Assembly: GCF_002261265.1 (NCBI RefSeq)
Contig: NZ_NEVK01000004.1
Coordinates: forward strand, 372,001 to 436,000
Length of the DNA: 64,000 nt
Source of the DNA: Bordetella genomosp. 7
GTDB lineage: Bacteria; Pseudomonadota; Gammaproteobacteria; Burkholderiales; Burkholderiaceae_B
Direction of reading: 5' to 3'
In this document: positions 8,614 to 40,895 of the stretch, piece by piece
How the letters are laid out: the number at the start of each line of letters is the position of its first letter
Numbering within the stretch: position 1 is the stretch's first letter
Program-made: the position numbers and the translations under genes
The notes under the pieces: model-generated
What the model was told of the DNA's origin: nothing
The model's input: the letters and a program-made list of their open reading frames with translations, nothing else
Database searches by the model: none

Positions 8614-8825
8614 GGTGTCTGACACCCTTCGGGAGTCAGACACCTGACGAAGTCCGCGAGACCCAGGCTTCCTGGTCGGGGCGGCTGATCGCGGTGTCTG
8701 ACACCCTTCGATCTCGATGTCTGACACCCTTCGGGAGTCAGACACCTGACGAAGTCGGCGAGACCCAGGCTTGCTGGTCGTGGTGCCTGATCGCGGTGTC
8801 TGACTCCCTTCGGGTGTCAGACACC
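8614..8825. repeat. Palindromic repeat cluster 1a: three full units and one half unit in tandem
   Basis: Full units lie at 8614-8644, 8718-8746 and 8795-8825; a left half-unit lies at 8693-8710. Each full unit pairs GGTGTCTGAC (or its last 8 bases) with GTCAGACACC, around a short inner stem CCC/GGG and loop TTC. An A-A mismatch separates the two stems; the unit at 8795 has T-T instead. The 48-base spacers at 8645-8692 and 8747-8794 are near-identical (TGACGAAGTC.GCGAGACCC...), so spacer plus palindrome was duplicated together. Confidence 0.9.
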
Positions 8826-8881
8826 TGGCGGATATGCGCGCCCGCGCGAGAACGACACCGCTCCATCGCTTTCTTGCCACA

Positions 8882-9012
8882 GTCCCGCGCCGTGGGGGCT
8901 TGCAGGGCGGCGCGTTGGGCGGCGGGGCAGCCGGCGCAGCCGGCCGAGGGCGCCTGCATGCGCCCGAGCCCGACGCACGTGCGCCGCCCTGCAAGCCCCC
9001 ACGGCGCGGGAC
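8882..9012. repeat. Perfect 32-bp inverted repeat with 67-base GC-rich spacer
   Basis: The left arm 8882-8913 begins GTCCCGCGCCGTGGGGGCTT. The right arm 8981-9012 is its exact reverse complement. The spacer holds a smaller hairpin, GGGCGC (8948-8953) with GCGCCC (8960-8965). The whole would fold into a long hairpin as RNA or a cruciform as DNA. It is flanked on both sides by TGTCTGAC palindromes. No target-site duplication is seen at the arm ends and no reading frame resembles a transposase. Confidence 0.9.
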
Positions 9013-9057
9013 GGCGCCAGAACCGAACAAGGCCGCGACTGCTTACCGGTGTCTCGA

Positions 9058-9140
9058 TGTCTGACACCCTTCGGGAGTCAGACACCTGACGCACTCTACG
9101 GGGGCAGGCACCTGACGCACTCTACGGCGGTCAGACGCCT
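9058..9140. repeat. Palindromic repeat cluster 1b and degenerate tandem units
   Basis: One full palindrome (TGTCTGACACC-CTTCGGG-AGTCAGACACC) at 9058-9086 is followed by a roughly 26-base tandem repeat (CACCTGACGCACTCTACG, twice) and a decayed half-site GGTCAGACGCC near 9128-9138. Confidence 0.8.
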
Positions 9141-9440
9141 GTCGTACCCCGCGGAAGTCGGGCATGGGACGAAGCTGACCCGCACCGGACTGCACAGCCC
9201 GTCGTTGCCATGCCGGCGCCTACGCCGGACGCTGCGTCCATCGGCATGGCGATTGCGTGCCTGCGCGCCAACAGCAACCCGCCCGTGCATACTTCCTCGG
9301 CCATTGGCAGTTTCTATCGACCTGATCAAGAGTGCGGTTGATCGCGCCTTGCAGCGCAATCGCCGATACACTGTCCGGAAATTGCACAGGCGCCCGGCTT
9401 CGGGCGCTTTATTGTCATGACTTCCGGGAGCCTTACCACC

Positions 9441-10457
9441 ATGACCGATCTGGCCCGCGTGCCGTTTTCCGTACTGGACCTTGCCCCCATCGTGCAGGGC
9501 GGCACTGCCGCGCAGGCGTTCCAGAACACCGTGGACCTGGCCCAGCACGTCGAGCGCTGGGGATACAAGCGGTTCTGGCTCGCCGAACACCACAACATCA
9601 CCGGAGTGGCCAGCAGCGCCACCGCCGTGCTCATCGGCCACGTTGCCGCCCGCACCAGCACCCTGCGAGTGGGTTCGGGCGGCATCATGCTGCCCAACCA
9701 TGCCCCGCTGATCATCGCCGAACAGTTCGGCACCCTGGAAAGCCTGTTTCCCGGACGCATCGACCTGGGCCTGGGCCGCGCGCCGGGCAGCGACGGCGCC
9801 ACACAGCACGCCTTGCGGCGCGGCCCGCGCAGCGGGCTGGAATTTCCTGCCCTGCTCGACGAACTGCGCGCCTTCCTGGCGCCGGAACGCCCCGGCCAGA
9901 GCGTGCGCGCCATTCCCGGCGCCGGCCTGGACATCCCCATCTGGCTATTGGGTTCCAGCGACTTCAGCGCACGCCTGGCAGCCGAACTGGGGCTGCCCTT
10001 CTCGTTCGCCGGCCACTTCTCGCCCGAAGGCATGGCCGCCATGCGCCTGTACCGGCATCTGTTCAAGCCATCGGCAACGCTGTCGCGCCCCTACGCGATG
10101 ATAGGCGTACCGGTAATCGCCGCCGACACCGACGAGCACGCCCGTTACCTGGCCACCACCCAGCAATTGAAATTCCTGTCGCTGGTGCGCGGCAACCGCC
10201 TGCAGCTGCAGCCCCCGGTCGCCAGCATGGACGGGCTCTGGAACGAGTGGGAGCAGCATGCAGTGGAACAGAAACTGGCAGCCTCGATCGTCGGAGGCCC
10301 TGCCACCGTCAAGGCCGGTCTGCAGGCGCTGATCGCCCAGACCGAGGCCGACGAGGTCATGATTGTTTCCGATTTCTATCGCCACGCCGATCGCCTGCGC
10401 TCTTACGAAATACTTGCTACGCTGAAGCAAAACGCAGCCGCCCAGGCCGCAGCGTAG
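9441..10457 (+). CDS. LLM class flavin-dependent oxidoreductase (luciferase-like monooxygenase family)
   Basis: 338 residues as started here. The ATG at 9441 has GGGAG 10 bases upstream; an in-frame ATG at 9417 has no ribosome site and is less likely. One bacterial-luciferase TIM-barrel domain. Visible family features are [40 protein letters not shown], and the [10 protein letters not shown] loop typical of the subfamily often annotated as alkanal monooxygenase-like or MsnO8-like (TIGR03558). It would use FMNH2; substrate unknown. Thioredoxin follows 111 bases downstream on the same strand. Confidence 0.85.
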
Positions 10458-10466
10458 GCCCGCACC

Positions 10467-10487
10467 CCCGCCCCGCGGCGGGATTTT
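10467..10487 (+). terminator. Possible weak terminator after the LLM oxidoreductase
   Basis: CCCGCC-CCGC-GGCGGG (10467-10482) can form a 6-bp GC stem followed by ATTTT. The T run is short, so termination may be partial. Confidence 0.4.
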
Positions 10488-10568
10488 CGCGCGGACGCCC
10501 GGCAAGCGCCCGCCCAATCGGCCGATCCGGCCATCGACGCCGCCCATTCGGCGGCAAGGACGCCAAGC

Positions 10569-10946
10569 ATGAGCAGCATTCTCGAACTCACCAAAGAATC
10601 CTTCCAGGAAGCCATCACGCCCGACAACACCCTGATCGTGGACTTCTGGGCGCCCTGGTGCGGCCCCTGCCGCGGCTTCGCTCCCGTATTCGAGCAAGCC
10701 GCCAAAGACCACACCGACGTAACCTTTGCCAAGGTCAATACCGACGAAGAGCAGGAGCTGGCCGGCGCCCTGGGCATCCGCTCGATTCCCACCCTGATGG
10801 TGTTCCGTGAACAAGTGCTGATGTTCTCGCAGCCCGGCGCCCTGTCCGCCGGCCAGCTTCAGGAACTGCTCGAGAAGATCAAGGCGGTGGACATGGAAAA
10901 GGTGCACCAGGAAATCGCCGCCGCGCAAGGCGACACCGACAAATAG
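10569..10946 (+). CDS. Thioredoxin
   Basis: 125 residues, one thioredoxin fold. The active site is WAPWCGPCRGFAP at about residues 27-39, with the cis-Pro loop in GIRSIPTLMVFR. It reduces protein disulfides in the cytoplasm; there is no signal peptide. The C-terminus is about 15 residues longer than E. coli TrxA, with an extra charged helix (MEKVHQEIAAAQGDTDK). This is probably a secondary thioredoxin rather than the housekeeping one, because Arg replaces the usual Lys after WCGPC and the tail is extended. Converges on the YigZ gene with a 19-base gap. Confidence 0.92.
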   Translation: MSSILELTKESFQEAITPDNTLIVDFWAPWCGPCRGFAPVFEQAAKDHTDVTFAKVNTDEEQELAGALGIRSIPTLMVFREQVLMFSQPGALSAGQLQELLEKIKAVDMEKVHQEIAAAQGDTDK

Positions 10947-10965
10947 GCGCCTGCGGGCTCGCCGG

Positions 10966-11553
10966 CTAATCGCGGACTTGCCAGCCGGCGCGGCCGCGCG
11001 TAACGTCGGCGGCGATCTGTTCCACGTTGGATAACGCGTCGCGCGGCACCCGCAGCACCAGCGACGCGCCCTCGCCGCCAAAAGATTCGGCCTGCACCTG
11101 CGCGCCGGCTTGCGCGACGCGCGCCTTGAGCAAGGGCAGTTCAGCGTATTCGCAGCGGCACGTAACGGTGGCCATATCCACAATCGGGACGCGGGGCGCC
11201 AGGCGCAGGCATTGTGCCGCGCAGCCGCCGTAGGCCCGCACCAGGCCGCCCGCGCCCAGCTTGACGCCCCCGAACCACCTGACCACCAGCACCGCGACCC
11301 GATCCAGCCCCTGCCCCTCTATGGCCTGCAATATGGGGCGCCCGGCCGTCCCGCCCGGCTCGCCATCGTCATTGAAGCGATAAGCCTGCCCGATACGGTA
11401 AGCCCAGCAATTGTGGGTGGCCGTCGGATCGCTGTGCGCGGCGAAAAACGCCATGGCTTCGTCCACGCTGGCCACCGGCGCCGCGTAAGCCTGGAAACGG
11501 CTCTTCTTGATGTCTTCTTGATGCGCGCTCGCCGCGCTCAGGGTTTCGCTCAT
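10966..11553 (-). CDS. YigZ/IMPACT family protein
   Basis: 195 residues. The N-terminal UPF0029/IMPACT domain shows the conserved block HNCWAYRIG, FNDDGEPGGTAGRPIL and VVRWFGGVKLGAGGLVRAY. The C-terminal ferredoxin-like domain (DUF1949 type) covers about 135-195. The biochemical role of bacterial YigZ is not well settled; eukaryotic IMPACT regulates translation through GCN1. The ATG at 11553 is the natural start. Confidence 0.88.
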   Translation of the reverse strand: MSETLSAASAHQEDIKKSRFQAYAAPVASVDEAMAFFAAHSDPTATHNCWAYRIGQAYRFNDDGEPGGTAGRPILQAIEGQGLDRVAVLVVRWFGGVKLGAGGLVRAYGGCAAQCLRLAPRVPIVDMATVTCRCEYAELPLLKARVAQAGAQVQAESFGGEGASLVLRVPRDALSNVEQIAADVTRGRAGWQVRD

Positions 11554-11589
11554 ACCCCGGGATTGTAGGCGGCCGGCGCCCGCCGCCCG

Positions 11590-12447
11590 TCAGCCGTGGC
11601 AGTCGGGGACTTCCTGGTCCAGATAAACGTCGAACGCGACGTCGCGCGCCCACTTGCGCGCCATGGCTTGCCAGACGCCCTGGCTGCGCCATTGGCGCAT
11701 GGTGGCGGCCAGCCAGCGGGCCGTGGCCTGATCGCCATTGCGGGCCACCCATACCAGTTCCGCCTGCGGGCCGGTGACAGGCAGCGTTGCCGAAAACTTC
11801 TTCCATTCGGGGAACTGCATCAACGGGCCCCACACCGTGTCGTCCACCAGGCCGATATCGCAGCTGCCTTCCCGTACCGCCACCAGCGCATCGGACGGCA
11901 CCCGATGAGTCTGCACCTTTGCGCCCCAGGTCGCGGCCAGCGCCTGCGCCTGAAAGGCAGCGGTGGACATGCATACGGTAAGGCCCTTTGCCTGGCTCCA
12001 GTCGCGCAACGGCGTGTCGCTGCGGATAACCGCCTTGGGGCGCGTCACATAGCCCGCCGCCACCACGGCCGTGCCGTCGCCCTGCAACGCGGGGGCAGAC
12101 TGGTCCGCGACACGGTCGGCGAGCAGCACGTCGACCACGCCGTCGGCCAGCGCCTGGGCCTGTCGCGCGGGCGGGATCTGCACCACTTCAAGGGCGAGGC
12201 CGAGCTGCTCGGCCAGGCGCGCCGCCGCAACAGTGTCCAGGCGCTCGGGCGTACGCACCTTGGCGCCTGCCGCCGCAGGCGGCGCCAGGTATGGCACGCC
12301 AACCACGAGCGTGCCGCGTTCGCGCGCCTTTCCGAACGGCTGGTCCGCCGCATCGGCCGGACCCGCCGCCTGCGCGCACAGCAGCCAGGCCGCAAGCCCT
12401 GTGGCCAGGGCGCGGCGCGCGTGAGAAACAACTTTCAAGCCAGGCAT
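11590..12447 (-). CDS. Periplasmic substrate-binding protein, family 3 type
   Basis: 285 residues from ATG at 12447. A TTG at 12468 has a better GGAAGG site and would add seven residues, so the start is open. Signal peptide cleaved near GPADA-AD. The mature protein starts GTLVVGVPYLAPP, the usual opening of type 3 binding proteins, and has the two-lobe pattern including LTVCMSTAAFQAQALA and SCDIGLVDDTVWGPL. It ends an operon of ATPase, binding protein, permease and this second binding protein, with a 39-base gap after the permease. Family 3 proteins usually bind amino acids or small polar solutes; a ligand cannot be named. Having two unlike binding proteins for one permease is unusual. Confidence 0.75.
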   Translation of the reverse strand: MPGLKVVSHARRALATGLAAWLLCAQAAGPADAADQPFGKARERGTLVVGVPYLAPPAAAGAKVRTPERLDTVAAARLAEQLGLALEVVQIPPARQAQALADGVVDVLLADRVADQSAPALQGDGTAVVAAGYVTRPKAVIRSDTPLRDWSQAKGLTVCMSTAAFQAQALAATWGAKVQTHRVPSDALVAVREGSCDIGLVDDTVWGPLMQFPEWKKFSATLPVTGPQAELVWVARNGDQATARWLAATMRQWRSQGVWQAMARKWARDVAFDVYLDQEVPDCHG

Positions 12448-12486
12448 GGTGCTAAGCGGCGGGGGCAAGCCCCGCCTTCCGTCCGG

Positions 12487-13281
12487 TTAAACGTACTGAT
12501 ACCGCAACAGGCGGTGCTTGAGGTTTTCAAGCACGAGCTGGTCGATCAGGGCGGCAAGAATCGCTATCACCAGGATGTTCATCATCACGCCGCTCATGTC
12601 GGCGATTTCACCCGAATACGCCAGCGACCGCCCCAACCCTTTGCCGAAGCCGATCAGCATTTCGGCCGAAATCAGGGCCCGCCACGCATTGCCGAAGGCC
12701 AGTTGCGCGCCGGTGATCAGCTCGGGCATGACGGCGGGCAGATAGACGCGCTTGATCAAGCCCCAGCGCGTGGCGCCCATGACGCGCGCGGCCGACACAT
12801 GCACCCGTTGCACGGATTCGGTGGCGTTCATGACGCTGAGCGCCGCCGGAAAGAACGCCGCCAACGCGACGACCACAATGATGGGCGCGCTGCCGAACCC
12901 CATGACGATCAGAAAGAGCGGCACCCAGGCAATGGACGGAATGGATTGCAGGATGACAATGGCGCTGCGCAGCACTTCGCGAAAGAAATACAGCACCGCC
13001 GCCACCAGCCCGAACCCGACACCGGCCAGCAGGGCCAGGCCGTAGCCCGCTCCCAGCCGGCCCAGCGTGCCCATGAGGCTCTGGTGAAAGCCCGGGTCGC
13101 CCAGGTCGTGCAGCAGGCGCAGCACCACCGTGGGCACGCCCGGCATCAGGAAGTCGGGCAGCGCCCAGGCCGCGGCTTGCCAGAGCAGTAGGATGAAAGC
13201 CACGCCAAGCACCCCGGCGAGGTGCTTGCGCAGCCCTGTTACGCGGGTCGAGGAGGTCAAAGCTTGCGCGCCTCTTGCCAC
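12487..13281 (-). CDS. ABC transporter permease, nitrate/sulfonate/taurine (SsuC/TauC-like) family
   Basis: 264 residues with about six membrane segments and the cytoplasmic EAA loop that docks on the ATPase (SVQRVHVSAARVMGATRWGLIKR). The GTG at 13281 overlaps the preceding binding-protein gene by 25 bases. A TTG at 13260, overlapping its stop, is an alternative start that would remove seven residues. It works with the ATPase at 14355 and the binding protein at 13257. Family members import nitrate, taurine, aliphatic sulfonates, bicarbonate or thiamine precursors. Confidence 0.88.
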   Translation of the reverse strand: MARGAQALTSSTRVTGLRKHLAGVLGVAFILLLWQAAAWALPDFLMPGVPTVVLRLLHDLGDPGFHQSLMGTLGRLGAGYGLALLAGVGFGLVAAVLYFFREVLRSAIVILQSIPSIAWVPLFLIVMGFGSAPIIVVVALAAFFPAALSVMNATESVQRVHVSAARVMGATRWGLIKRVYLPAVMPELITGAQLAFGNAWRALISAEMLIGFGKGLGRSLAYSGEIADMSGVMMNILVIAILAALIDQLVLENLKHRLLRYQYV

Positions 13282-14264
13282 GAAAGGTCAACGATGGTCG
13301 AGACATCGTACGGCTTGCCGTCGCGGGTCTTGAGCGAGCCCTGCGCCTGCAGGATATCGGCGATTTCCTGCATGCGCGCCGCGTCCTTGTCGGTAAGCTT
13401 GGCCGTAAAGACCTGCGTCTTGATGGCTTCTTCGATGACCGTCTCGCGCGGCAGCTCGCCACGCTTGAGCGTCTTGAGGGTAGGCTCGGCAATGAAGTAA
13501 GAAGCGATCAGGCTTGCGGCCTTGGAGGGATTCTGCTGCAGCAGGTCGATGGCGGCCTTTTGCGCGTCCAGCGCCTTCCATACATCGTCCTTGCGCTTTT
13601 CAAGCACTTCGCCCGAGGTGATCACCACCATGCACGGGAACGGCCAGGCCTGGCCCACCTCGTAGATCTGCTTGACCGGGGCGACCAGTTGCGCGATGCG
13701 GTCATAGGGCTCGAACAGGAACGCCGCGTCGACGCGCTGCCCGACCAGCGATTGCACCGCAACGGCAGGGCTGACGCCCATGATGTTCACGTCCGAGGGC
13801 TGCAGGCCGCCCTCTTTCAGCACTACGCCCTTGAGCACCACGTCCGCCGTACTGCCCTCGCTCTGTGAGGCCAGCGTCTTGCCCTTGAGGCCCGCGATAT
13901 CGTCGATGCCCGTGCCTTCGCGCACCAGCAGCGAGTGGTACCCCTGTTGCGCGCCGCCCACGACCTTCAGATCGGCGCCCTTGGACGCCCACGCCACGGC
14001 GTTGGTAAAGCCCAGCACGCCGATGTCGAGCTGGCCGCCGACAATCGCCTTGATCAGGTCGGTGCCCGACTTGAACTCCACCAGCTCAGTATCCAGCCCG
14101 GCGTTCTTGTAGAAGTCGCCCTCCTGGGCCACGATGGCCTGCGCATCGTCCATGACGCGCAGATAGCCCACGCGGAACTTTTCGGCCGCGGCGGCAGTCG
14201 AGGCGAGCGCCATGGCCGCCGCTGCGGTGGCCAGCGTGGCGGCCAACCAGTTCTTGAGTCTCAT
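13257..14264 (-). CDS. ABC transporter substrate-binding protein, SsuA/TauA/NrtA-like
   Basis: 335 residues. ATG at 14264 has GGAGAGC upstream. Signal peptide ends at STAAAA-EK. The mature start KFRVGYLRVMDDAQAIVAQE, followed by GLDTELVEFKSGTDLIKAIVGGQLDIG, is the standard pattern of the NMT1/SsuA-like fold: an N-terminal lobe strand, then the FKSGTD.I.A...GQ.D element. It captures the ligand in the periplasm and delivers it to the permease downstream. An oxyanion such as a sulfonate, or a thiamine-like compound, is possible; sequence alone does not decide. Second gene of the operon. Confidence 0.88.
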   Translation of the reverse strand: MRLKNWLAATLATAAAAMALASTAAAAEKFRVGYLRVMDDAQAIVAQEGDFYKNAGLDTELVEFKSGTDLIKAIVGGQLDIGVLGFTNAVAWASKGADLKVVGGAQQGYHSLLVREGTGIDDIAGLKGKTLASQSEGSTADVVLKGVVLKEGGLQPSDVNIMGVSPAVAVQSLVGQRVDAAFLFEPYDRIAQLVAPVKQIYEVGQAWPFPCMVVITSGEVLEKRKDDVWKALDAQKAAIDLLQQNPSKAASLIASYFIAEPTLKTLKRGELPRETVIEEAIKTQVFTAKLTDKDAARMQEIADILQAQGSLKTRDGKPYDVSTIVDLSWQEARKL

Positions 14265-14354
14265 TGTTTGCTCTCCAGTGCTTCAACAGATAGTGATATG
14301 AAATTCGATGCGGCGCCGTCGGGCGCCATGGAAGGGCCGCGGGCCGGGGCGCCG

Positions 14355-15113: not shown

Positions 15114-15150
15114 GGGGATGGGGCTCGCACGGTGGCGTGTAAAGAGCCCC

Positions 15151-15222
15151 TAATCTAACAATCCGTTATATGAATCCAAACAATATTTTTATAATTCTTT
15201 AATAACTATCAGGCATATAGAA
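15151..15222 (-). promoter_or_regulatory. AT-rich promoter/control region of the nitrate/sulfonate-type ABC operon
   Basis: A sharply AT-rich stretch in an otherwise GC-rich region, immediately upstream of the ATPase gene. On the minus strand it contains several TATAA-like words (ATTATAAAAATATTG, CATATAACGG) and a possible TTGGAT...TAGATT pair with 16-base spacing. No one promoter stands out. The AT content and repeated ATAAC/TTAT elements would fit a LysR-type activator site (for example CysB-like), which is inference. Confidence 0.55.
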
Positions 15223-30954: not shown

Positions 30955-31196
30955 GTCGTTCCGGGAAGACCATCGGCGTCGCTCGCGGGCAAGAGCGGCG
31001 CCAATGGCCGGGCTGGCATTATTCGGAGACCCTGGCATGGCACGCCATTGCGGCGCCGCGGCCGCGACGCCTGCGCGTCAACGAAGCCGGCCGGGAATCC
31101 CCCCCGAAAAATATCAGATTCTAGTAAGGTTCGCACGGTGCAATAAAACCCCTTTTTACCGGCCAGTTGGCCAGCAAGCCCAGACGGAGACGTAAG

Positions 31197-32180
31197 TTGA
31201 AGAAGAAAACCGCCATCAAAACAGCAATTATCACCGCAGCAGCCGCGTGCTTCCTGGGAGGCGGCGCTGCCCATGCGCAAGCTTACCCCGAGCGCCCCGT
31301 GCGCCTGCTGGTGCCGTTTGCGGCCGGGGGCACCACCGACCTTGTGGCGCGCATCGTGGCCGATGGCCTGGGCCGTGAGCTGGGCCAGCCGGTGGTAGTA
31401 GAAAACCGCGGCGGAGGCGGCGGATCCATCGGCGCGGAAGCCCTGACCAACGCCGCGCCCGACGGTTACACGATAGGCGTGGCCACCGTCAGCACCATGG
31501 CGACCAACCCGGCCACCAATGCGCAGACGCCCTACGATCCGCTGAAGGACTTCGTGCCCATCATCAACCTGGTCAATGTGCCCAACGTATTGAGCGTCAA
31601 CCCCAAGACGCCGGCCGGCAACCTGCAGGAGTTCATTGCGCTGCTCAAGGAGAACCCCGGCAAGTACAGTTACGCCTCGGCCGGCACAGGCAGTATTTCG
31701 CATCTGGATGGCGAGCTGTTCAAATCGTTGACCGGCACCGACATGATCCACGTGCCCTACCGGGGATCGGGTCCGGCCCTGAACGACACCCTGGCCGGGC
31801 AGGTAAGCGCGCAATTCGACAACCTGCCCTCTTCTATTGCGCACATCCAGGCGGGCAAGCTGCGCGCCCTGGCGGTGGCGTCCACGGCTCGCGTCGCCGG
31901 GCTGCCCGACGTGCCGACCTTTGCGGAAGCGGGCCTGCCCGCCATGGACAACATGGCCTGGTATGGCCTGGTGGCCCCGGCCGGCGTGTCGCCCGCCATC
32001 GTGGCTCGCGTGCACGACGCGGCCGCCAAGGCGCTGCAGGACCCGGCCATCCGCCAGCGCCTGCAAGACCGCGGCGCACTGGTCGACGGCGGCACGCCCG
32101 AGCAGTATGCGGCGCTGATCAAGCGCGAGCTTGAGCTGCGCAAGCGCATCGCCAACGAGCAGAACATCAAGCTGAACTGA
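31197..32180 (+). CDS. Bug/TctC family periplasmic receptor (tripartite tricarboxylate transporter type)
   Basis: 327 residues. The TTG at 31197 has GGAGA eight bases upstream and begins a clean signal peptide (MKKKTAIKTAIITAAAACFL ... AHAQ), so it is preferred to an earlier TTG at 31167 lacking a site. The mature N-terminus YPERPVRLLVPFAAGGTTDL is the Bug signature; VVVENRGGGGGSIGAEAL and HVPYRGSGPALNDTLAGQV are further family blocks. Bug receptors bind carboxylates or similar compounds. No tctA/tctB permease is present, as for most of the many Bug genes in Bordetella. Repeat cluster 2 begins 24 bases past the stop. Confidence 0.92.
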   Translation: MKKKTAIKTAIITAAAACFLGGGAAHAQAYPERPVRLLVPFAAGGTTDLVARIVADGLGRELGQPVVVENRGGGGGSIGAEALTNAAPDGYTIGVATVSTMATNPATNAQTPYDPLKDFVPIINLVNVPNVLSVNPKTPAGNLQEFIALLKENPGKYSYASAGTGSISHLDGELFKSLTGTDMIHVPYRGSGPALNDTLAGQVSAQFDNLPSSIAHIQAGKLRALAVASTARVAGLPDVPTFAEAGLPAMDNMAWYGLVAPAGVSPAIVARVHDAAAKALQDPAIRQRLQDRGALVDGGTPEQYAALIKRELELRKRIANEQNIKLN

Positions 32181-32203: not shown

Positions 32204-32400
32204 GGTGTCTGACACCTTCGGAGTCAGACACCGCAGTACGTTGCCGCGCGTCGGACGCCGCAGTACCGTTGCCGAAACCGGTGTCTGACTCCGAAGGTGT
32301 CAGACACCGCCATACCGATGTTTGAACCGTCCTCGAAGGTGTCAGACACCGCCGTACCGACGCTTGCTCCGAAGGTGTCAGACACCGCCGTACCGACGCT
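32204..32400. repeat. Palindromic repeat cluster 2 in a convergent intergenic region
   Basis: Full units at 32204-32232 and 32280-32308 are exact reverse complements of each other (29 bases each, inner stem CC/GG, loop TTC or GAA). Two right-half units follow at about 32334-32350 and 32371-32386, each followed by a CCGTACCGACGCTTG-like spacer, in 36- to 42-base tandem periods. The cluster fills nearly all of the space between the stops of the Bug gene (32180) and the ATPase gene (32410). Confidence 0.9.
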
Positions 32401-32409: not shown

Positions 32410-35034
32410 CTACGCGGGAACAGACCGGATGCCCACGCCCATGTCCTGCCAGGCTTGGGGGTGGCAGGTAAAAAGCAGCACCTGATGGCGCGATGCCGCG
32501 TCGTAGAGCGCGCGTTTCATCAATTCGCGGCGCTTTTCGTCCGCGTGCACCAGGGTGTCGTCCAGCACCAGCAAGGTAGGACGCCCGGCCTGCTGCAGCA
32601 GGTCGGCATATGCCAGGCGCGCCAGCACGCCAAGCTGTTCGCGCGTGCCGAAACTTAACGCATCGAGCGCATCTTCGCCGCCTCCGCGGGCCAGCGCCGC
32701 GGGTGTCAGCGTCTCATCCAGGCGCGATTGCGCACCGGGAAACAGCAGACCCACATAGTGCTGCAGCCGCCGCGCCAGCGGATCCAGAAGCCGCTGCGTG
32801 GCCGCCGCCCGCCCTTCTGCGAGCAAGCGCCAGAGCAGGTCCAGGGCCTGTGCGCGCGCGGCGAACTCGTCGCGACGCCTGGCCAAGCGCTGGGCATCGG
32901 CCTGCGCCTGCAGCAGCTGTTCGCCCAGCCCCTGGGCCTGCGCCTGCTCAAGCTTGCCCTGCAGCTGCAGCAGTTCGGCATGGCGACGCTCTTGTTCGGC
33001 GCGCGCCAGCACTGCCGACTGTTCGTAGCGTTGCACATCTTGCTGGATCAGTTCGGGCTGGTGCGCCTGCAGGGCGGCCTGCGCCTCGTGCACGCGACGC
33101 GCCAGCGTGTCCCGCCCCGCTCGCACTTCGACCAGCCTGGCGCTGCGCTGGTCACGCTGCTCGGCCCGCGTGGCGCTGTGGAACTCGCGCTGCTGCGCCA
33201 TCCATTGGTCGTGCAGCACCTGTGCGCGCGCTCGCAGGGTATCCAGATAGGTGCGCGCATGCACCACGCCTTGCGCGGCCTGGTCGGCCTCGCCGGTTGC
33301 GTCACGCTGGGCCTGCTGCGCCTGCGCCAGATCCGCGACGGGCTGGCGGGGTTCGGGCAGGCGCTCGCGCAAGCCCTGCAGCTGCGCGCGCCGCTCCTGG
33401 GCTTGCGCGCGGGCGGCATGCAGAGCGTCTGTGCCGTCCGGCGCCTGGATGCGCAGGTATTTGTCCGCCAGATCGAGATCGCGGCGTGCCTGCTCGTAGG
33501 CCGCGGCGCGCGATTCGGCAGCAGCAAGGTCGTCGGCCTGCAGGCGTGCGAGCAAGGCGCCGCGCTCGCCCAACGCCGTCTGCAACGCGGCCTGCACCGC
33601 AGGCAGGTCGCGCCCGCCCGGCTCGATGCGCAATGTACCGACGCCGGGGATGCGCAGCGCAACGGCCTCGACCAGCAGCGTGTCGCCGGCTCCGGCCAGG
33701 GCGGCGCCGTCCAGATCGATTTGCTGGCCGCCTTGCAGGTCGTACTGCAGTCGCGTCGCGCCGGCGCGCTGCTGCGTCTGCAACTGGACAATGCGCTGTT
33801 CCAGTTCGCGCAACGCGCGCAAGGCCTGCATATCGATAGCCAGGCTTGCCACGGTGCGCTGCAACTGCTGTCGCTGCTCCTGGATCTGCGCGGCCTGCGC
33901 AATGGCGTCATCCAGCCTGCGCAGGTCGTCATCGAGCCGGCTCAGTTGCGCGTCGCAATCCTGCCTTTGCGCGGCCTGGTGCGCCGCGGCAACTTGCGCC
34001 TGACACTGCGCCAGGCGCTCGCCGGCCTGCTGCTGCAATTGCTGGGCGCGCTCGAGCGCCGCGCCGGCCGGCTCGATTTCGGCGGCTGCCGCCTCGGCCT
34101 TGGCCTGCAGCTCGCGCAGCACCTCGCCGTCGCGCTGGTCGCGCTGGACCTGGTCGTGCAGCAGCGACAGCGTGTCGTCGGCTTGTGCGAGCTCGCGCTG
34201 CAAACCGGCCAGCGCCTCGCGCTCGCGGCTGATCTCGGCAAGCCGTGCGCGCGCCTGCGCGGCCCGCTGCTCGAGCTCGAGCCATGGCTGTTCTTGCTGT
34301 GCCTTGTCGTAGTCGCGCCGCAGTTCGGCAAGCCGGTCGACATCGGCGTCCAGCGCGCCCTTGGCGGCAGCGAGCGCCTCGGCTTTCTGCATCGCCTGCA
34401 GGAAGGCGTCTTCTGCGTCGCGAAAAGCCCCCTTGGGCCGGCCGCTGCGCGCGTCGCGCAACGCGGCGCGTTCGGCTTCGACGCGCTCGTACAGGTAATC
34501 GCCGTCGGCGCCGGCAAGCTCGCCTGTCAGCCGCGTCAGGGCGTCGCGCAAATGCGCCTGCGCATGCGCGGCCGGCTCGGCCAGGTTCTGCCCTTCGCCT
34601 TGCGCGATCCACAGCAAGCCCGGTATGCCGCCATGTTCGGGGCGACTGCTCCCCTTGGCCGGAAATTCGAACCCCAGCAGGCTGGCCAGCGCGGTTTCGG
34701 CGGCCTCGCCTTCGTGGCGCTCGGCGCCGCCGTCGACCAGCAGCTCGCAGCGCGCGCGGCTGAGAAACGATTTGCGCAGCAGGTAGCGACGGCCGGCGTG
34801 CTCGAAATCGATCTCGATGGACGGCCGGGCGCCCTGCATGCCCCACGGAGCCAGGTCGGCCACCTTGGTGGTCTTGTAGCGTTCCAGAAACGCCGCCCGG
34901 ATCGCCGCCACGAACGTGCTCTTGCCCGCCTCGTTGGGGCCGGCAATGACGTTCAGCCCGTCGGCCAGATCGTCCAGCGCCGCGCCGCTGCGAAATCTGC
35001 GGAACTCTTCAATGGCTATGCGGCGCAGTTTCAT
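32410..35034 (-). CDS. SMC/Rad50-like AAA ATPase (YhaN/SbcC-like)
   Basis: 874 residues. N-terminal ATPase half: FRRFRSGAAL, Walker A GPNEAGKST at about 33-41. A long Gln/Ala/Arg-rich coiled-coil region extends from about 190 to 740. The C-terminal half has the ABC-like signature LSFGTREQLGVLARL and Walker B LLVLDDTLVH. No CxxC zinc hook was seen in the coiled coil, and the GPNEAGKST P-loop is the YhaN rather than classical SbcC style. It overlaps the start region of the nuclease gene by four bases, so the two form a two-gene unit, expected to act as an ATP-dependent DNA end-processing or hairpin-opening complex. Its stop lies about ten bases from repeat cluster 2. Confidence 0.88.
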   Translation of the reverse strand: MKLRRIAIEEFRRFRSGAALDDLADGLNVIAGPNEAGKSTFVAAIRAAFLERYKTTKVADLAPWGMQGARPSIEIDFEHAGRRYLLRKSFLSRARCELLVDGGAERHEGEAAETALASLLGFEFPAKGSSRPEHGGIPGLLWIAQGEGQNLAEPAAHAQAHLRDALTRLTGELAGADGDYLYERVEAERAALRDARSGRPKGAFRDAEDAFLQAMQKAEALAAAKGALDADVDRLAELRRDYDKAQQEQPWLELEQRAAQARARLAEISREREALAGLQRELAQADDTLSLLHDQVQRDQRDGEVLRELQAKAEAAAAEIEPAGAALERAQQLQQQAGERLAQCQAQVAAAHQAAQRQDCDAQLSRLDDDLRRLDDAIAQAAQIQEQRQQLQRTVASLAIDMQALRALRELEQRIVQLQTQQRAGATRLQYDLQGGQQIDLDGAALAGAGDTLLVEAVALRIPGVGTLRIEPGGRDLPAVQAALQTALGERGALLARLQADDLAAAESRAAAYEQARRDLDLADKYLRIQAPDGTDALHAARAQAQERRAQLQGLRERLPEPRQPVADLAQAQQAQRDATGEADQAAQGVVHARTYLDTLRARAQVLHDQWMAQQREFHSATRAEQRDQRSARLVEVRAGRDTLARRVHEAQAALQAHQPELIQQDVQRYEQSAVLARAEQERRHAELLQLQGKLEQAQAQGLGEQLLQAQADAQRLARRRDEFAARAQALDLLWRLLAEGRAAATQRLLDPLARRLQHYVGLLFPGAQSRLDETLTPAALARGGGEDALDALSFGTREQLGVLARLAYADLLQQAGRPTLLVLDDTLVHADEKRRELMKRALYDAASRHQVLLFTCHPQAWQDMGVGIRSVPA

Positions 35035-36149: not shown

Positions 36150-36252
36150 GCGTCGTTACCCGGGTAGTGCCTGCGCCTGACGGCGGCCATGCGCGATTGT
36201 GGCACAAGGCCGGCGCAGATCGCGCCGGCCCGGGAAGTTGCGTGGCGGCGCG

Positions 36253-37557
36253 CTACGCCGCCGAACGCGCGCCCAGCGGTTCGCGGCCCGCCCGCAGGCG
36301 CGAGGCCCCGTAGCGCGACAGGTCGAGGTCGTCGGCGCGTATGGCGGGCTGGTGCCCGGTGACCAGGTCGGCCACCAGCTTGCCGGATCCGCAGGCCATG
36401 GTCCAGCCCAGCGTGCCATGCCCCGTATTGAGAAACAGGTTGGCATAGCGCGTGGGGCCCACGATGGGCGTGCTGTCGGGCGTCATGGGGCGCAGCCCGG
36501 TCCAGAATTCCGCCTGGGACACGTCGCCGCACCCGGGATACAGGTCGGTGACCACGCGTTCGAGCGTACGACGGCGTGCCGGCTTGAGGCTCAAGTCGAA
36601 CCCTGCGAGCTCGGCCATGCCGCCGACGCGGATACGGTTGTCGAAACGAGTAATGGCCACTTTGTAGGTTTCATCCAGCACCGTGGACACCGGCGCGGCA
36701 TCGGCCTGGGCCAGGGGCACGGTAAGGGAATATCCCTTGACCGGGTAGACCGGCAGGTCCAGCCCCAGCGGCGCCAGAAAACCCCGGGTATAGCTGCCGA
36801 ACGCCGCGACATAGCGGTCGGCCGACAGTAGTTCGCCATCCACCTGCACGCCCTGCACCTGAGCGCCGGCCGTTTGCAGGCCCTGCACTTGCTGGCCATG
36901 GCGGAACTCGACGCCCAGGTCGGCCGCCATCTGCGCGAGCCGGCGCGTGAACAGGCGGCAGTCGCCGGTTTCGTCGTTGGGCAGACGCAAACCGCCCGCC
37001 AGCTTATGGGCGCTGCGGGCCAGGGCCGGCTCGGCTGTCTGCAGGCGTGCGCGGTCGAGCAGCTCGTAGGGCACGCCGCAGCGCTCGAGCACCTGGATGT
37101 CACGCTGCGCGGCGGCAAACTGGGCGGGGGTGCGGAACAGCTGCAGCGTGCCCAAAGCGCGTTGTTCGTACTGGATGCCGGTCTCGGCCCGCAGTTCGCG
37201 CAGGCAATCACGGCTGTATTCGGCCAGGCGCAGCATGCGCTCTTTATTGACGGCATAGCGGCTGGCGGAACAATTGGCCAGCATCGCCGCCATCCAGCGC
37301 CACTGGTACAGGGTGCCGTCGGGCCGTATGGCCAACGGCGCGTCTTTCTGGAACAACCATTTCAGGGCCTTGAGCGGAATGCCCGGCGCCGCCCAGGGGG
37401 TGGAATAGCCGGGCGAGACCTGGCCGGCATTGGCGTAGCTGGTTTCGCTGGCGGCCTCGGGCTGGCGATCCAGCACCGTTACCCTGGCGCCGTGCCGCGC
37501 GAGGTAGTAAGCGGTTGTCACGCCGATGACGCCGGCGCCCAGGACGATGACATGCAT
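36253..37557 (-). CDS. dadA: D-amino acid dehydrogenase small subunit DadA
   Basis: 434 residues. FAD-dependent membrane-associated enzyme that oxidises D-amino acids such as D-alanine to keto acids. The FAD motif is [18 protein letters not shown] at about 7-24. Family blocks include [22 protein letters not shown] and the C-terminal [18 protein letters not shown] and [16 protein letters not shown]. The divergent Lrp-type gene starts 138 bases away and very probably regulates it, as in many proteobacteria where an Lrp/BkdR-type protein responds to alanine. No alanine racemase (dadX) follows. Confidence 0.93.
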
Positions 37558-37695
37558 AAGAAATTCCGTTTTAGACAGGCCACACTGATAAACAAATAGT
37601 CTAGGAGCGATGCGGCAGTGAAAAGCACTAAAATCGGCGGCCCCGATTCAATTTTTTACTGGCGGCATGGCCTTTAAGCGCCCTGCAAGAGTGAA
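37558..37695. promoter_or_regulatory. Divergent control region between dadA and the Lrp-type regulator
   Basis: AT-richer than its surroundings. A TAAAAT at 37629-37634 could be the -10 of the lrp-like gene, with transcription starting about 60 bases ahead of its ATG. Words such as AAACAAATAGTCTAG and TTCAATTTTTTACTGG may include Lrp-type sites, but no clear repeat pair is visible. Confidence 0.5.
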
Positions 37696-38166
37696 ATGCG
37701 CGAACTCGACCGTACCGACCTGAAAATTCTCGATATCCTGCAGCGCGACGGGCGGATGTCCATTACCGACCTGGCCGAGCGCGTCAACCTGTCGGCCACG
37801 CCATGTTCCGAGCGCGTCAAGCGCCTGGAACGCGAAGGCGTCATCTCGGGCTATTACGCTCGCGTCAATCCGGCGGCCCTGGGTCGCAATTTGCTGGTGT
37901 TCCTGGAAATCAAGCTGTCGGCCAAGTCGGGCGACATGTTCGACCGCGTCAAGCAGGAACTGCTTTACGTGCCCGAAGTCATGGAATGCCACCTGGTGTC
38001 GGGCGATTTCGACTATCTGGTAAAGGCCCGGCTGACCGAAATGAACGAATACCGGCGGCTGTTGGGCGAGATCCTGAAGCGCCTGCCGGCCTCGGCCGAG
38101 TCGCGCAGCTATGTCGTAATGGAAGAAATCAAGGAAACTCTGTTCCTGCCGACCTACAGCCACTGA
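37696..38166 (+). CDS. lrp: Lrp/AsnC family transcriptional regulator
   Basis: 156 residues. N-terminal winged helix-turn-helix at about 1-60 (LDRTDLKILDILQRDGRMS, then VNLSATPCSERVKRLEREG as recognition helix), then the RAM/effector-binding domain (VMECHLVSGDFDYLVKARL at about 95-115). Near-identical in style to E. coli Lrp and to DadA regulators. It is divergent from dadA, so the simplest role is control of D-amino-acid catabolism and of itself; a global Lrp role is not excluded. Confidence 0.9.
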   Translation: MRELDRTDLKILDILQRDGRMSITDLAERVNLSATPCSERVKRLEREGVISGYYARVNPAALGRNLLVFLEIKLSAKSGDMFDRVKQELLYVPEVMECHLVSGDFDYLVKARLTEMNEYRRLLGEILKRLPASAESRSYVVMEEIKETLFLPTYSH

Positions 38167-38176
38167 GGATCGCGAC

Positions 38177-38944
38177 ATGCCCGCCCCTAAGCCTTACCGG
38201 AAACTCATTTCCATGACACGCCTGTCCCGATACTTTTTTCGCGGTCTGATTACCTTATTGCCGATCGCACTGACGATCTACGTTCTGTATATCCTGCTTT
38301 CCTGGACCGAACGTGTGGCCATGGCGCTGCTCAGCCCGTTCATCGGCAGTTTCTACATACCCGGCATGGGCCTGGGCCTGGGCATACTGGGCATCCTGCT
38401 GGTGGGGTACCTGGTCTCGAAGGAACGCGTGCAGCGTGTGTTCCTGCTGGTGGAAATGCCGTTCACCAACATACCGGTGGTCAAGAGCATCTATTCGTCG
38501 CTCAAGAGCTTTGCCGACTATTTCTCGCCCAGCGCCAAGACCGACACTCAGCACGTGGTGGTGTTGCGCATCCCCGGGCAGCCCCTGGAACTGGTCGGGC
38601 TGATTACACGCCGCGGCACGGCCGGGCTGCCGGAAGGTTTTTTACCGGGCGAGCGCGTGGCGGTGTATCTGCCCATGGGATACATGATCGGCGGCTACAC
38701 GGTGTTCGTGCCCACCGAATGGGTCAACCCCATCGACATGTCGGTCGAAGAAGCCATGCGCGCCTCGCTGATCGCATGGATGGCGCGCGCCCCGGACGGG
38801 TCGGCAAGTGCGGCGCCCCAACCGGCCGCTCCCGCGGCCGCTCCCGCGGGCACGCCGACGCCTGCCGCCGCCCCGGCCGAACCCGCTGAACCCGCCGCGC
38901 CGGCCCCGGGGCCGGCCGCCTCGTCGGACGCGCCTCGCCCGTGA
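38177..38944 (+). CDS. DUF502 family membrane protein
   Basis: 255 residues. Two or three hydrophobic segments near the N-terminus (FRGLITLLPIALTIYVLY, GLGLGILGILLVGYLVSK), followed by the DUF502 block MPFTNIPVVKSIYSSLKSF, PGQPLELVGLITRRGTAGLP and VPTEWVNPIDMSVEEAMRA. The last ~55 residues are Pro/Ala repeats (PAAPAAAPAGTPTPAAAPAE), probably disordered. The ATG at 38177 has GAGGA; an ATG at 38213 is possible. DUF502 proteins have no settled function. Ten bases after the lrp stop, so likely co-transcribed with it. Confidence 0.82.
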   Translation: MPAPKPYRKLISMTRLSRYFFRGLITLLPIALTIYVLYILLSWTERVAMALLSPFIGSFYIPGMGLGLGILGILLVGYLVSKERVQRVFLLVEMPFTNIPVVKSIYSSLKSFADYFSPSAKTDTQHVVVLRIPGQPLELVGLITRRGTAGLPEGFLPGERVAVYLPMGYMIGGYTVFVPTEWVNPIDMSVEEAMRASLIAWMARAPDGSASAAPQPAAPAAAPAGTPTPAAAPAEPAEPAAPAPGPAASSDAPRP

Positions 38945-38989
38945 CGGGTCGGCGCCGCAGTCAACCGGAACACTGAATAGGAACATTGC

Positions 38990-39583
38990 ATGAAGTTCAT
39001 GGCCAGGAATTCGCTGTTCGGTATCTTGCTGCGCTCGCCGTGGTGGATCAGCCTAGTGATCGCGACCGCGCTGGTGGTGGTTGCGGTGGCGGCAGTGCCG
39101 CCGGCGTACGCGGCATTTCCGGCATTCGGCGCCATTCCGTTCCTTGTGATCGCCGGGATCGCCGCCTGGAAGCAACGCGGCAAACCGTCGGCGGCGCGCG
39201 TCGAGCAGACCGCCGCGACCTTGGCCGCCCTGCCCTGGCCGGCCTTTGCCGACGTGCTCGAAGCCGCCCTGCGCCGCGACGGCTGCGAGGTCACCCGGCT
39301 GGACGGCAAGGCCGCCGATTTCGCGCTGACCCGCGCCGGCGGCGCCCGGGCGCTGCTTTCCGCGCGGCGCTGGAAGGCTGCGCACACGGGCGTCGAACCT
39401 CTGCAACGCCTGCACGCCGCACTGGCGGCCGCCGGCGCCGGGGAAGGCATTTACGTATCCCTGGGTACGCCATCGGCCCCCGCGCGGGAGTTCGCGGCAC
39501 GGCACAGCATCCGCTTCATGGATGCCGAGTCGCTGGCGCGCCTGTTGCCGCGGGGGATACCGCAAGTTTCCGCTCAACGGTAG
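38990..39583 (+). CDS. Membrane-anchored Mrr-like (restriction endonuclease fold) protein with degenerate active site
   Basis: 197 residues. Two hydrophobic segments (about 15-35 and 42-60) anchor a C-terminal Mrr_cat-like domain at about 75-190. It begins LPWPAFADVLEAALRRDGCE; the expected catalytic Asp is in AADFALTRAGG. The usual (E/Q)xK, as in VQCK, reads LLSARRWK here, so the conserved acidic/amide residue is missing and Lys is shifted. The later block GEGIYVSLGTPSAPAREFAA resembles the fold's core. Likely a binding or inactive nuclease-like protein at the membrane; DNA cleavage is doubtful. Followed 62 bases later by the Tgl-like gene. Confidence 0.65.
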   Translation: MKFMARNSLFGILLRSPWWISLVIATALVVVAVAAVPPAYAAFPAFGAIPFLVIAGIAAWKQRGKPSAARVEQTAATLAALPWPAFADVLEAALRRDGCEVTRLDGKAADFALTRAGGARALLSARRWKAAHTGVEPLQRLHAALAAAGAGEGIYVSLGTPSAPAREFAARHSIRFMDAESLARLLPRGIPQVSAQR

Positions 39584-39645
39584 AATCTGGCGCCACACGG
39601 CGCCGCCATCAGCCCCCCCACTGCGCCGGCAAGCGGAGCCGACGC

Positions 39646-40797
39646 ATGCCCCACACCGACACGCCCCCCGACATCGCCGCGCGGCAAGGCATACGCATCG
39701 AGACTGCCCACGAGCGAGCCCTGCCTGCCGAACGCGACGCCGCGCTTGCCATGTTGCGCGCATGGGGCTTGCACCCGTACTTCGTGGCGCTGCCCGACGG
39801 GCCCTGCGCCGTGCAGTTCGAGCCCGCGCCCGCCCTGCCGAAACTGGCGCCGCAACGCGATACCACCGGCCTTTGCACGGCGCTGGGCCTGGACACGCAT
39901 GGCAATGCCGACGACCTGGCGCGCGAAATCGTGCTGGCGATGCTGCTGGGACCTGAGCCGTTTCCGTTTCCCGGGGCGGCAGAAATGCGCAGCGCGGTGC
40001 GGATACGCCAGCATATTGTCCAGGCCGCCCGCAAGACGGCCCTGGCGTTCGACACCGAACACGCCGAGCGCCCGGCGGGGTACTGGCGCTACGACGACGC
40101 GCGCGGTTTCACGATCGAACCCGGCGTGTCACTGATCGACGCGCTGCGCAAGGCCACGCAGCCGGAAGCGTCGGGCAAGTTGTATTCGTTTTCGTGCTAC
40201 CGGGCCACAGAATACGTGACGCTGCTGGGCATTGCGCTTGAACTGCAGGCAGCGCACCCGGCGCTGTACGAGCGCCTGCAGAAGCAGTGGGAAACGCGGG
40301 CCATCATGTCTGGGCAGTTCCACGAGGTGTTCCTGCGCGAGTACGGCTCGATGCAGCACCCGTTGCCGTCCAGGTATTACGTGCCGGGCGATCGCCTGTG
40401 GTTCCGCAACCCCGACGCGCATTCATCCAATGTCGAGGGCTACGAAGGGTCTTGGGTGTTTTACCTGGGCGGCGGGTTGTTCAACAACTTCTGGAAGCGC
40501 GACCGGCCGTATACGCTGGCCGCGAAATGCGTCGAAATCTACCATTGGCGTGACGCGGCGCAGCGGGATGCGCAGGGCCGGCTCATGATCGACGAAGCCA
40601 TTGTCGAAGAACACGCGGCACGCACCTTGGGCGACCCGGCTGCGTTGGACAGCGTACTGGCGCGCATGCTGCGGCGGCGCGATCCGCAGGGCGTGTACGC
40701 GGACGGCGGCTGTATCGACGCCACCCGCGAATGCGCGCTATGGGTGCTGCCCGGCACGGCCCGGATCGCACTGCCGGATGTGGGGGAAGGTGTCTGA
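39646..40797 (+). CDS. Tgl-like protein-glutamine gamma-glutamyltransferase homologue
   Basis: 383 residues. ATG at 39646 follows AAGCGGAG. The middle part resembles Bacillus spore-coat transglutaminase Tgl: SAVRIRQHIVQAARKTALAF, PAGYWRYDDARGF, LYSFSCYRATEYVTLLGIAL with putative catalytic Cys184, and GDRLWFRNPDAHSSNVEGYE. In my by-eye alignment the Glu before that Cys is Ser, the second Glu (WRGEN in Bacillus) is Gly/Ser (YEGSW), and the His region is FNNF. Activity is therefore uncertain. There are extra domains of about 115 residues before and about 90 after the core. The last codons and stop (GGT GTC TGA) come from repeat cluster 3. Confidence 0.65.
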   Translation: MPHTDTPPDIAARQGIRIETAHERALPAERDAALAMLRAWGLHPYFVALPDGPCAVQFEPAPALPKLAPQRDTTGLCTALGLDTHGNADDLAREIVLAMLLGPEPFPFPGAAEMRSAVRIRQHIVQAARKTALAFDTEHAERPAGYWRYDDARGFTIEPGVSLIDALRKATQPEASGKLYSFSCYRATEYVTLLGIALELQAAHPALYERLQKQWETRAIMSGQFHEVFLREYGSMQHPLPSRYYVPGDRLWFRNPDAHSSNVEGYEGSWVFYLGGGLFNNFWKRDRPYTLAAKCVEIYHWRDAAQRDAQGRLMIDEAIVEEHAARTLGDPAALDSVLARMLRRRDPQGVYADGGCIDATRECALWVLPGTARIALPDVGEGV

Positions 40798-40895
40798 CAC
40801 CCTACGGGAGTCAGACACCGGAGGCGCAGTGGAAGGCAGTCAGACGCCGCAGGCGGAGAGAAAAGGTGTCTGACTCCCGTAGGGTGTCAGACACC
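40789..40895. repeat. Palindromic repeat cluster 3: an inverted pair of full units
   Basis: Units at 40789-40819 and 40865-40895 are exact reverse complements of each other (31 bases). The loop is TAC/GTA instead of TTC/GAA, while the A-A (or T-T) mismatch is kept. A decayed half-site (GCAGTCAGACGCCG) lies near 40837-40850. The first unit overlaps the stop codon of the Tgl-like gene. Confidence 0.92.

Follow-up and report, generated by a model that had tools for sequence, protein, structure and literature searches.

What are the short palindromes that recur at gene 3' ends in a 64,000-nucleotide stretch of the Bordetella genomosp. 7 genome, and how did they get there? This stretch, which we will call the window, is positions 372,001 to 436,000 of contig NZ_NEVK01000004.1 (assembly GCF_002261265.1). 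A preliminary description, made from the letters alone, reported eight full palindromic units of 29-31 bp in three blocks, and proposed that they form a REP/BIME-like family (repetitive extragenic palindromes and bacterial interspersed mosaic elements). We found all eight units where they had been placed, each with 9-bp arms. The proposal is supported by the copy number of the units, by their intergenic placement, and by a gene of the REP-associated tyrosine transposase (RAYT) type that is flanked by units. We think it very likely that a REP-associated tyrosine transposase (Y1, HUH), from the TIRYT side of this group (named for terminal inverted repeats, or TIRs), moved the units, which would be its non-autonomous, REP-like palindromes.

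Copy number and placement between genes

The genome that contains the window (G000) has 4,129,154 bases in 8 contigs. A strict pattern found 320 copies of the unit in G000, and the reversed pattern found none. A relaxed pattern found 438 copies and the widest pattern (GGTGYCNGRC..GYCNGRCACC) found 459. We compared nine genomes of the genus, G000 to G008; approximate names are B. petrii MY10 for G001, B. petrii DSM 12804 for G003, B. genomosp. 2 AU8256 for G006, and B. petrii BT 1 9.2 for G008. The strict pattern is present in seven of the nine, and in none of 32 genomes from 32 other genera. Counts for each genome (strict pattern, forward; relaxed pattern; genes matching Y1_Tnp in a Pfam search) are:

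G000: 320 strict, 438 relaxed, one Y1_Tnp gene
G001: 26 strict, 237 relaxed, one Y1_Tnp gene
G002: 0 strict, 0 relaxed, no Y1_Tnp gene
G003: 158 strict, 350 relaxed, one Y1_Tnp gene
G004: 84 strict, 297 relaxed, no Y1_Tnp gene
G005: 6 strict, 88 relaxed, one Y1_Tnp gene
G006: 17 strict, 101 relaxed, one Y1_Tnp gene
G007: 0 strict, 0 relaxed, no Y1_Tnp gene
G008: 468 strict, 874 relaxed, one Y1_Tnp gene

Within the window, TGTCTGAC occurs 19 times (0.81 expected), and 0 of 100 shuffles reached 19.

The high count is not an artefact of the strict pattern. In an all-copy check, across 20 arm positions, 77 units had no arm mismatches, 14 had one, 4 had two, and 4 had three. Four mismatches were seen in 6 units, versus 1 in the reversed control; from five mismatches on, the counts were 31 and 178, versus 26 and 185 in the control. 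These counts reject the idea that neutral decay was masked by the strict pattern.

We examined gene placement in 864 kb of G000 (1-800 kb of contig C1, plus the window), with genes called by a simple codon-usage script. None of the 93 units in this sample overlaps a called gene by more than half its length. The earlier claim that all units of the window lie outside genes needs one small correction: one of them contains a gene's stop codon (see below). The units occupy 25 gaps between genes: 17 convergent, 7 tandem, and 1 divergent. Convergent gaps make up 103 of the 617 gene gaps, so the unit blocks are enriched in them (p = 1.7e-8).

A transposase gene flanked by the units

Y1_Tnp has a single match in G000, and this locus has three units on each side. 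Among the genus genomes, one copy is found in six of the seven that bear units and in neither of the two that lack them. Each of the six loci has units on either side of the gene, and these are in the arm variant of their own genome (such as GGTGTCCGGC in G001, GGTGTCAGGC in G005, and GGTGTCAGAC in G006).

Five of the proteins are intact; within this set, the other members are 66-89% identical to the first. All five match PF01797 and the NCBIfam family NF047646 (REP-associated tyrosine transposase) at E ≤ 1, and all contain the HVH and YIELNP motifs. NF047646 has a curated cut-off of 80 bits; the first protein, which is the one that we compared to the cut-off, scores 87.4 bits. The best relative with a solved structure is TnpAREP from E. 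coli (4er8; E = 1.2e-5). By our reading of the alignment, W94, Q95, E100, H101, and R104 of TnpAREP correspond to W, E, S, R, and D here.

Over the first 99 codons, dN/dS was 0.07-0.17 in 9 of the 10 pairs of intact genes (those with computable dS), a sign that constraint acts on the gene. The G000 gene has an in-frame TGA ahead of the catalytic tyrosine motif; this motif is intact in the five relatives. Because of this stop, dispersal in G000 is probably over. For the G000 gene, dN/dS is saturated versus three of the five relatives and is 0.19 versus the other two, so relaxed selection is not demonstrable from these values.

At L022/L025 in B. genomosp. 2, the transposase lies between copies, one per side, of a stretch that holds the end of the neighboring gene with two units.

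Units and transposase across the family

We searched with the wide pattern in 250 genomes, which were sampled evenly from a larger set for the family. Nine genomes contain 41-906 places, while the remaining 241 contain 7 or fewer. The nine are the seven unit-bearing genomes of the genus and two Achromobacter genomes: G221 (approximately Achromobacter sp. RTa), with 76, and G229 (approximately A. agilis LMG 3411), with 41. We also searched the 250 genomes with a profile that was built from five Bordetella transposases and did not include the genes from G000, G221, or G229. At E ≤ 1e-90, there was one match in each of eight of the nine unit-rich genomes and none in the other 241. The number of units follows the transposase in two genera. 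Next to the G221 gene, there is a row of longer-looped GGGTGTCAGACAC..GTGTCTGACACCC hairpins on one side and there are single words on the other. From these sequence comparisons, we infer that a transposase present in one copy very probably spread the palindromes.

Structure of the units in the window

The units of the window, the lone arms among them, and the adjacent genes are:

8614 to 8644, + strand: full unit, A.A mismatch, loop TTC (block 1, 46 bp past the permease stop)
8693 to 8705, + strand: lone 13-bp arm GGTGTCTGACACC, partner missing (block 1)
8716 to 8746, + strand: full unit, A.A, outer stem of 9 bp, starts with GATGTC (block 1)
8795 to 8825, + strand: full unit, T.T, loop TTC (block 1)
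9056 to 9086, + strand: full unit, A.A, outer stem of 9 bp, starts with GATGTC (block 1)
32204 to 32232, + strand: full unit, A.A, inner stem of 2 bp, loop TTC (block 2, with convergent genes on either side)
32280 to 32308, + strand: full unit, T.T, loop GAA (block 2)
32338 to 32350, + strand: lone arm GGTGTCAGACACC within a ~36-bp tandem repeat (block 2)
32374 to 32386, + strand: lone arm GGTGTCAGACACC, sharing the ~36-bp tandem repeat with the arm at 32338 (block 2)
40789 to 40819, + strand: full unit, A.A, loop TAC, gives the stop codon of open reading frame 38986-40797 (block 3, convergent)
40865 to 40895, + strand: full unit, T.T, loop GTA (block 3)
7275 to 8567, + strand: permease (Pfam family PF00860), upstream of block 1
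31167 to 32180, + strand: TctC receptor (Pfam family PF03401), left of block 2
32410 to 35034, - strand: AAA ATPase, SMC-like, right of block 2
38986 to 40797, + strand: PF20085 TGL gene, left of block 3; its final codons are inside the palindrome
40981 to 42786, - strand: extracellular solute-binding protein (Pfam family PF01547), right of block 3

Degenerate arms are also present, in addition to the three single arms that are listed. All eight full units have an outer stem of 9-10 bp, an A.A or T.T mismatch at a constant position, an inner GC stem of 2-3 bp, and a three-base loop (TTC, GAA, TAC, or GTA). The preliminary description had this anatomy right, except that the outer stems of the units at 8716 and 9056 reach only 9 bp. 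The mismatch makes each unit directional, as A.A read on one strand becomes T.T on the opposite strand; we will call these directions A and T. In block 3, the inserted unit took over the stop codon of the neighboring gene: the unit at 40789 provides the TGA of the reading frame at 38986-40797. The C-terminal residues of this protein (40789-40797 is within the palindrome) are unlike those of its relatives.

We folded five representative units, of which one or two match units in the window; under both RNA and DNA parameters, they give the hairpin just described. An Rfam scan of the window gave no matches. The arms in this family of palindromes are GGTGTCNGAC, and covariation indicates that the pairing of the arms is conserved: among 110 distinct units from six genomes, pair 7 is Watson-Crick in 86 (shuffle mean 46.6, maximum 64) and pair 9 is Watson-Crick in 104 (shuffle mean 59.2, maximum 76). 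Pair 5 is uninformative.

As RNA, the representative units form stable hairpins (-21 to -23 kcal/mol), and 17 of 25 blocks lie between convergent genes, as would be expected if the units were transcription terminators that are selected at gene 3' ends and whose repetition is incidental. However, we found no hairpin followed by a T run at the units when we scanned blocks 2 and 3; the one such site was off the units. Canonical terminators are not rarer in the convergent gaps that bear units (2 of 17) than in the other convergent gaps (14 of 86). Furthermore, several of the orthologous gaps have no units, and the number of units tracks a transposase. We consider it very unlikely that the units are primarily terminators.

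Polarity and doublets

The mismatch is less uniform across the genome than in the window, where it was rightly described as conserved (8 of 8 units). Among 99 units in 867 kb of G000, 75 have A.A or T.T, 23 have a paired A-T, and 1 has T.C. In the other genomes, too, A.A or T.T is the usual state. A-T pairs are found in all 8 units sampled from G006 and in 1 of 34 units from G004; there are a few other combinations, and T-A never occurs.

The sequences that flank the units do not contain a GTAG, GTGG, or CGTC foot in the profiles of G000, G003, and G008. In place of a GTAG-type foot, the profiles of G003 and G008 show a 5' C and a 3' TG(G). When units are read in the A direction, the 3' flank begins with TG in 41 of 44 distinct flanks in G003, 26 of 32 in G004, 7 of 7 in G005, and 19 of 31 in G008. 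In G000, this holds for 13 of 71 distinct flanks: the tag of its relatives has been lost.

In the relatives, units form inverted doublets, 22-35 bp apart, most of which read T..A. T..A doublets number 8 in G003, 8 in G004, 6 in G008, and 2 in G005, and G008 has 3 A..T doublets. Many of the doublets have CCA...TGG at their outer ends, and their spacers are partly shared. At the level of blocks, T..A is seen in 8 of 9 blocks in G004, 6 of 9 in G008, and 2 of 3 in G005.

We also considered a rule by which the first unit past each stop codon reads A (31 versus 2). We dropped this rule, as the same polarity is seen near 5' ends (6 versus 2); the pattern arises because the polarity of the doublets imposes it.

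In the proposed mechanism, the transposase would recognize a single-stranded hairpin, probably in one strand polarity. This polarity would be set by the A.A/T.T mismatch plus, in the relatives, the CCA...TGG ends. The transposase would then move or copy a doublet of two inverted units into the gaps between genes.

Orthologous sites and points against transposition

We examined the sites of the three blocks in the other genomes of the genus. At the block 1 site, downstream of the same genes, full units are present in G000, G003, and G008 (3 of 9). At the block 2 site, full units are present in G000, G004, and G008 (3 of 9); a different gene comes next in G002, G005, and G007. At the block 3 site, full units are present in G000, G003, G004, and G005 (4 of 7). 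In the other genomes, the orthologous gap is short or is taken up by other DNA, and G001 has degenerate arms at block 1. The occupancy of an orthologous site varies from species to species.

Several observations weigh against movement by the transposase. Transposition, a target site, or excision was not observed in the genome comparison, and insertions at orthologous sites differ in their exact base position. G004 has 313 units by the wide pattern and no match to the transposase, and 9 of 28 of its units are inside called genes. (Six of these are within ~330 bp of the 5' end of the called reading frame, whose start is possibly wrong; one is near a 3' end; and two are well inside.) The flanks of the G229 gene hold only half-site words of 13-14 bp and no full hairpin. 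A profile that was built from five Bordetella proteins ranks such proteins favorably, and the presence or absence of genes and units across genomes is not phylogenetically independent. The stop in the G000 gene is known from one assembly only. Finally, polarity is not uniform. Of the 12 blocks in G003, only 3 read T..A and 7 read A..A; and G000 is reversed, with A..T in 18 of 21 scorable blocks (27 in total). Two of these A..T blocks are the ones that flank the transposase.

Because the units of G004 retain the tag and the doublets of its relatives, it is likely that this genome lost its transposase gene recently.

Tandem arrays and the constancy of the arms

In G000, tandem arrays are frequent among the blocks, and each block has spacers of its own. 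The 18 A..T blocks comprise 6 of plain AT, 10 of a longer form (A(n)T or AT(n)), and 2 of other types (ATAAT and AoT). We propose that in G000, an A..T doublet was the starting point, and that unequal exchange between palindromic arms then multiplied one half along with its local spacer. This would yield A(n)T and AT(n) because unequal exchange within an A-spacer-T doublet keeps the outer units. Core inversion within arrays, as a switch between A and T, was dropped as an explanation, as unequal exchange accounts for both forms.

In six arrays from G000 with 37 copies, the arms differ at 8 of 2300 sites (0.35%) and the spacers at 459 of 4478 (10%). These arrays were chosen for having many units, and they include one copy that the strict pattern missed. 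An unselected count (34 arm mismatches in 99 units with 20 positions each) goes in the same direction and is weaker. The nearly invariant arms suggest that selection or homogenization acts on the palindromes themselves.

As an example of a long array, C1:254296-255064 of G000 contains twelve mismatch-free units, with a period of 67-68 bp, between two convergent genes.

Palindromes are hot spots of templated correction, and there are hundreds of near-identical copies. Instead of selection, a mutational process might keep the arms identical: palindromes could correct themselves by template switching, or the copies could convert one another. But self-correction within a unit should erase the A.A/T.T mismatch, and 75 of 99 units keep it. 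We doubt that a mutational process is the explanation.

E. coli BIMEs bind gyrase or IHF, and the units could likewise be binding sites for a host factor, centered on the 13-bp dyad GGTGTCWGACACC. They might act, for instance, as topological insulators that are selected by the host, with mobility being past or minor. This would fit with arms that are nearly invariant while the spacers of the same arrays vary, and with the location of the arrays between convergent genes; also, every unit with A.A or T.T retains one perfect dyad and one broken dyad. On the other hand, the number of dyads varies: there are two perfect dyads in the 8 sampled units from G006 and one in most others. Both of the unit-free members of the genus also lack units at the orthologous gaps, and host selection leaves the link with the transposase unexplained. 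We consider it rather unlikely that the units are primarily host sites. Where they lie between convergent genes, the palindromes may still have a topological or protein-binding role.

The palindromes of G000 have been kept even though the transposase lost its catalytic end. Possible reasons are selection, conversion among the copies, or a very recent stop. With a truncated transposase, invariant arms, and varying spacers, G000 is a natural experiment on what keeps REPs after mobility stops.

Comparison to known repeats

The size and location of the units would fit ordinary REPs of the GTAG type or the previously-described "Bor" repeats of Bordetella. According to the literature on REPs, a GTAG/GTGG or CGTC foot marks most of the REPs that have been described; no such foot is seen in the profiles of the flanks in G000, G003, and G008. 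As described in the text of Petrillo 2006 (PMC1590033), the Bor repeats are palindromes of 26-30 bp near genes in B. bronchiseptica, parapertussis, and pertussis, which is similar to our units, but there are 42-75 copies of a 30-mer. The Bor consensus is given only in a figure, so the comparison of GGTGTCTGAC to Bor is by description. It seems highly improbable that our units are either of these.

The other repeats of this genus that we considered are the BREs of beta-proteobacteria (Hot 2011, PMC3110155). By the description in that text, BREs are intergenic and sometimes tandem, and they occur in Bordetella; but they are longer (~90 bp), with at most 29 copies per genome. We set them apart by this description alone.

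The texts on REP, BIME, and REPIN elements and their RAYTs or TnpAREP (Nunvar 2010, PMC2817692; NAR 2021, PMC8266576; Quentin 2018, PMC6006769) describe systems that share several features with ours: hundreds of short extragenic hairpins, inverted doublets, repeats on all sides of a RAYT gene, and a mismatch in the stem that gives strand polarity. In E. coli, the bulge in the REP is needed for activity, according to the same texts. In contrast to these systems, our units have no GT[AG]G foot.

In the TIRYT/TIRtron systems, as presented in the text of Di Nocera et al. 2013 (PMC3733652), a Y1 HUH gene is flanked by inverted repeats that are also dispersed, as it is here. At several sister loci, the ends GGGGTCAG and GGGGACAG fit the short word GGGGWSAS of that text, possibly by chance, and GGTGTCAG is one base off. 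Unlike in those systems, the repeats here are hairpins of 29-34 bp that number in the hundreds and form doublets and tandem arrays. Also, the C-terminal helix-turn-helix of TIRYT subclass 2.1 was not detected by Pfam in any of the five intact proteins, in which Y1_Tnp is the sole domain. In the literature, no REP-like sequences are reported beside the gene for subclass 2.1 (TIRYT), and atypical ones are reported for subclass 2.6. Bor is among the untagged REP-like families that Di Nocera et al. name (PMC3733652).

We did not recognize a published account of this palindrome family in the search results and passages that our literature search covered; a description that is given only in a figure is possible. 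The 13-mer GGTGTCTGACACC is absent from the paper texts that we searched. Relative to known REPs, the features that differ are the lack of the usual foot, the GGTGTCNGAC arms, the polar A.A/T.T mismatch, and, in the relatives, the CCA...TGG ends.

Related transposases and a possible origin of the palindromes

There is as yet no settled answer to how REPs form, and Di Nocera et al. suggest in their text (PMC3733652) that TIR-type relatives may illuminate this process and may be less productive than RAYTs. We examined the transposases that rank below those of the unit-rich genomes.

The next-ranked transposases (E = 1e-66 to 1e-78) are from six genomes in the genera g4 and g52. At four of these six loci (in G243, G257, G197, and G203), plain inverted repeats that share the end of the units, ...GTCTGACACC, lie on both flanks. 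In the same comparison, no inverted repeat was found at the flanks in G259. We saw no half-site at the short locus in G151, which was outside of the inverted-repeat comparison. Upstream of the gene in G257, there are also two long-looped palindromes with the GTCTGACACC end.

The following four transposases (E = 1e-45 to 1e-48) are from G043, G047, G078, and G163. Palindromes of the form GGGGTCNGAC..GTCNGACCCC adjoin the gene in the first three, and by that pattern there are none anywhere in the genome of G163. G047 contains 1359 of the GGGGTCNGAC palindromes and one gene, while G043 and G078 contain 3 each. Among the 250 genomes, the next-highest count is 27, in G181, whose match to the transposase is distant (E = 4e-20).

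G047 (genus g40) is a 4.4-Mb genome, and at its locus L148 the related gene is flanked by GGGGTCNGAC palindromes. Its congener G081 has 1.

Among far relatives in other classes, the flanking repeats often end in GGGGACAG, GGGGACAC, or GGTGACAG, which fit or nearly fit GGGGWSAS, a short 8-mer that was counted without a control for chance; many of the loci have no repeats. With the same lack of a chance control, the end in Bordetella (GGTGTCNG) is one or two bases off GGGGWSAS, and several sister loci fit.

In a tree of 35 rows, the Bordetella and Achromobacter proteins that are labeled as having palindromes form one clade (97/91), and the label requires two changes. The tree was midpoint-rooted and we assigned the labels ourselves; A. 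veterisilvae and A. agilis were labeled on the basis of half-site words close to the gene, and A. agilis also on that of its 41 places genome-wide. Given the direction implied by the rooting and the labels, the palindromes may have arisen, perhaps on two occasions, from TIR ends in the TIRYT lineage.

A broader proposal has two parts: high-copy REP-like palindromes arose at least twice within this bacterial family by the joining of TIRYT TIRs (GGTGTCNGAC in Bordetella and Achromobacter, and GGGGTCNGAC in another genus), and the palindromes of G000 outlived their truncated transposase and are maintained by selection, as tandem arrays in the gaps of convergent gene pairs. We put forward this combination tentatively and regard it as possible but not probable. 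The related transposases show plain TIRs, low-copy palindromes, or up to 906 (in Bordetella) or 1359 (in another genus) units, which makes the order of the steps testable.

Other repeats near the units

Two other repeats lie beside or within the blocks in the window. At 40889-40976, beside block 3, there is an 18/36-bp tandem repeat of half arms that contain AGACACC. At 8875-9019, within block 1, there is a second element, with a 67-nt core between 39-nt inverted arms that are 92% complementary. A 21-bp word from this core (both strands, up to 2 mismatches) occurs 37 times in G003, 15 times in G004, 10 times in G000, 6 times in G008, 4 times in G001, and 3 times in G005; three genomes have 0. 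In G004, a copy of this element has different arms, and by eye, their pairing is retained.

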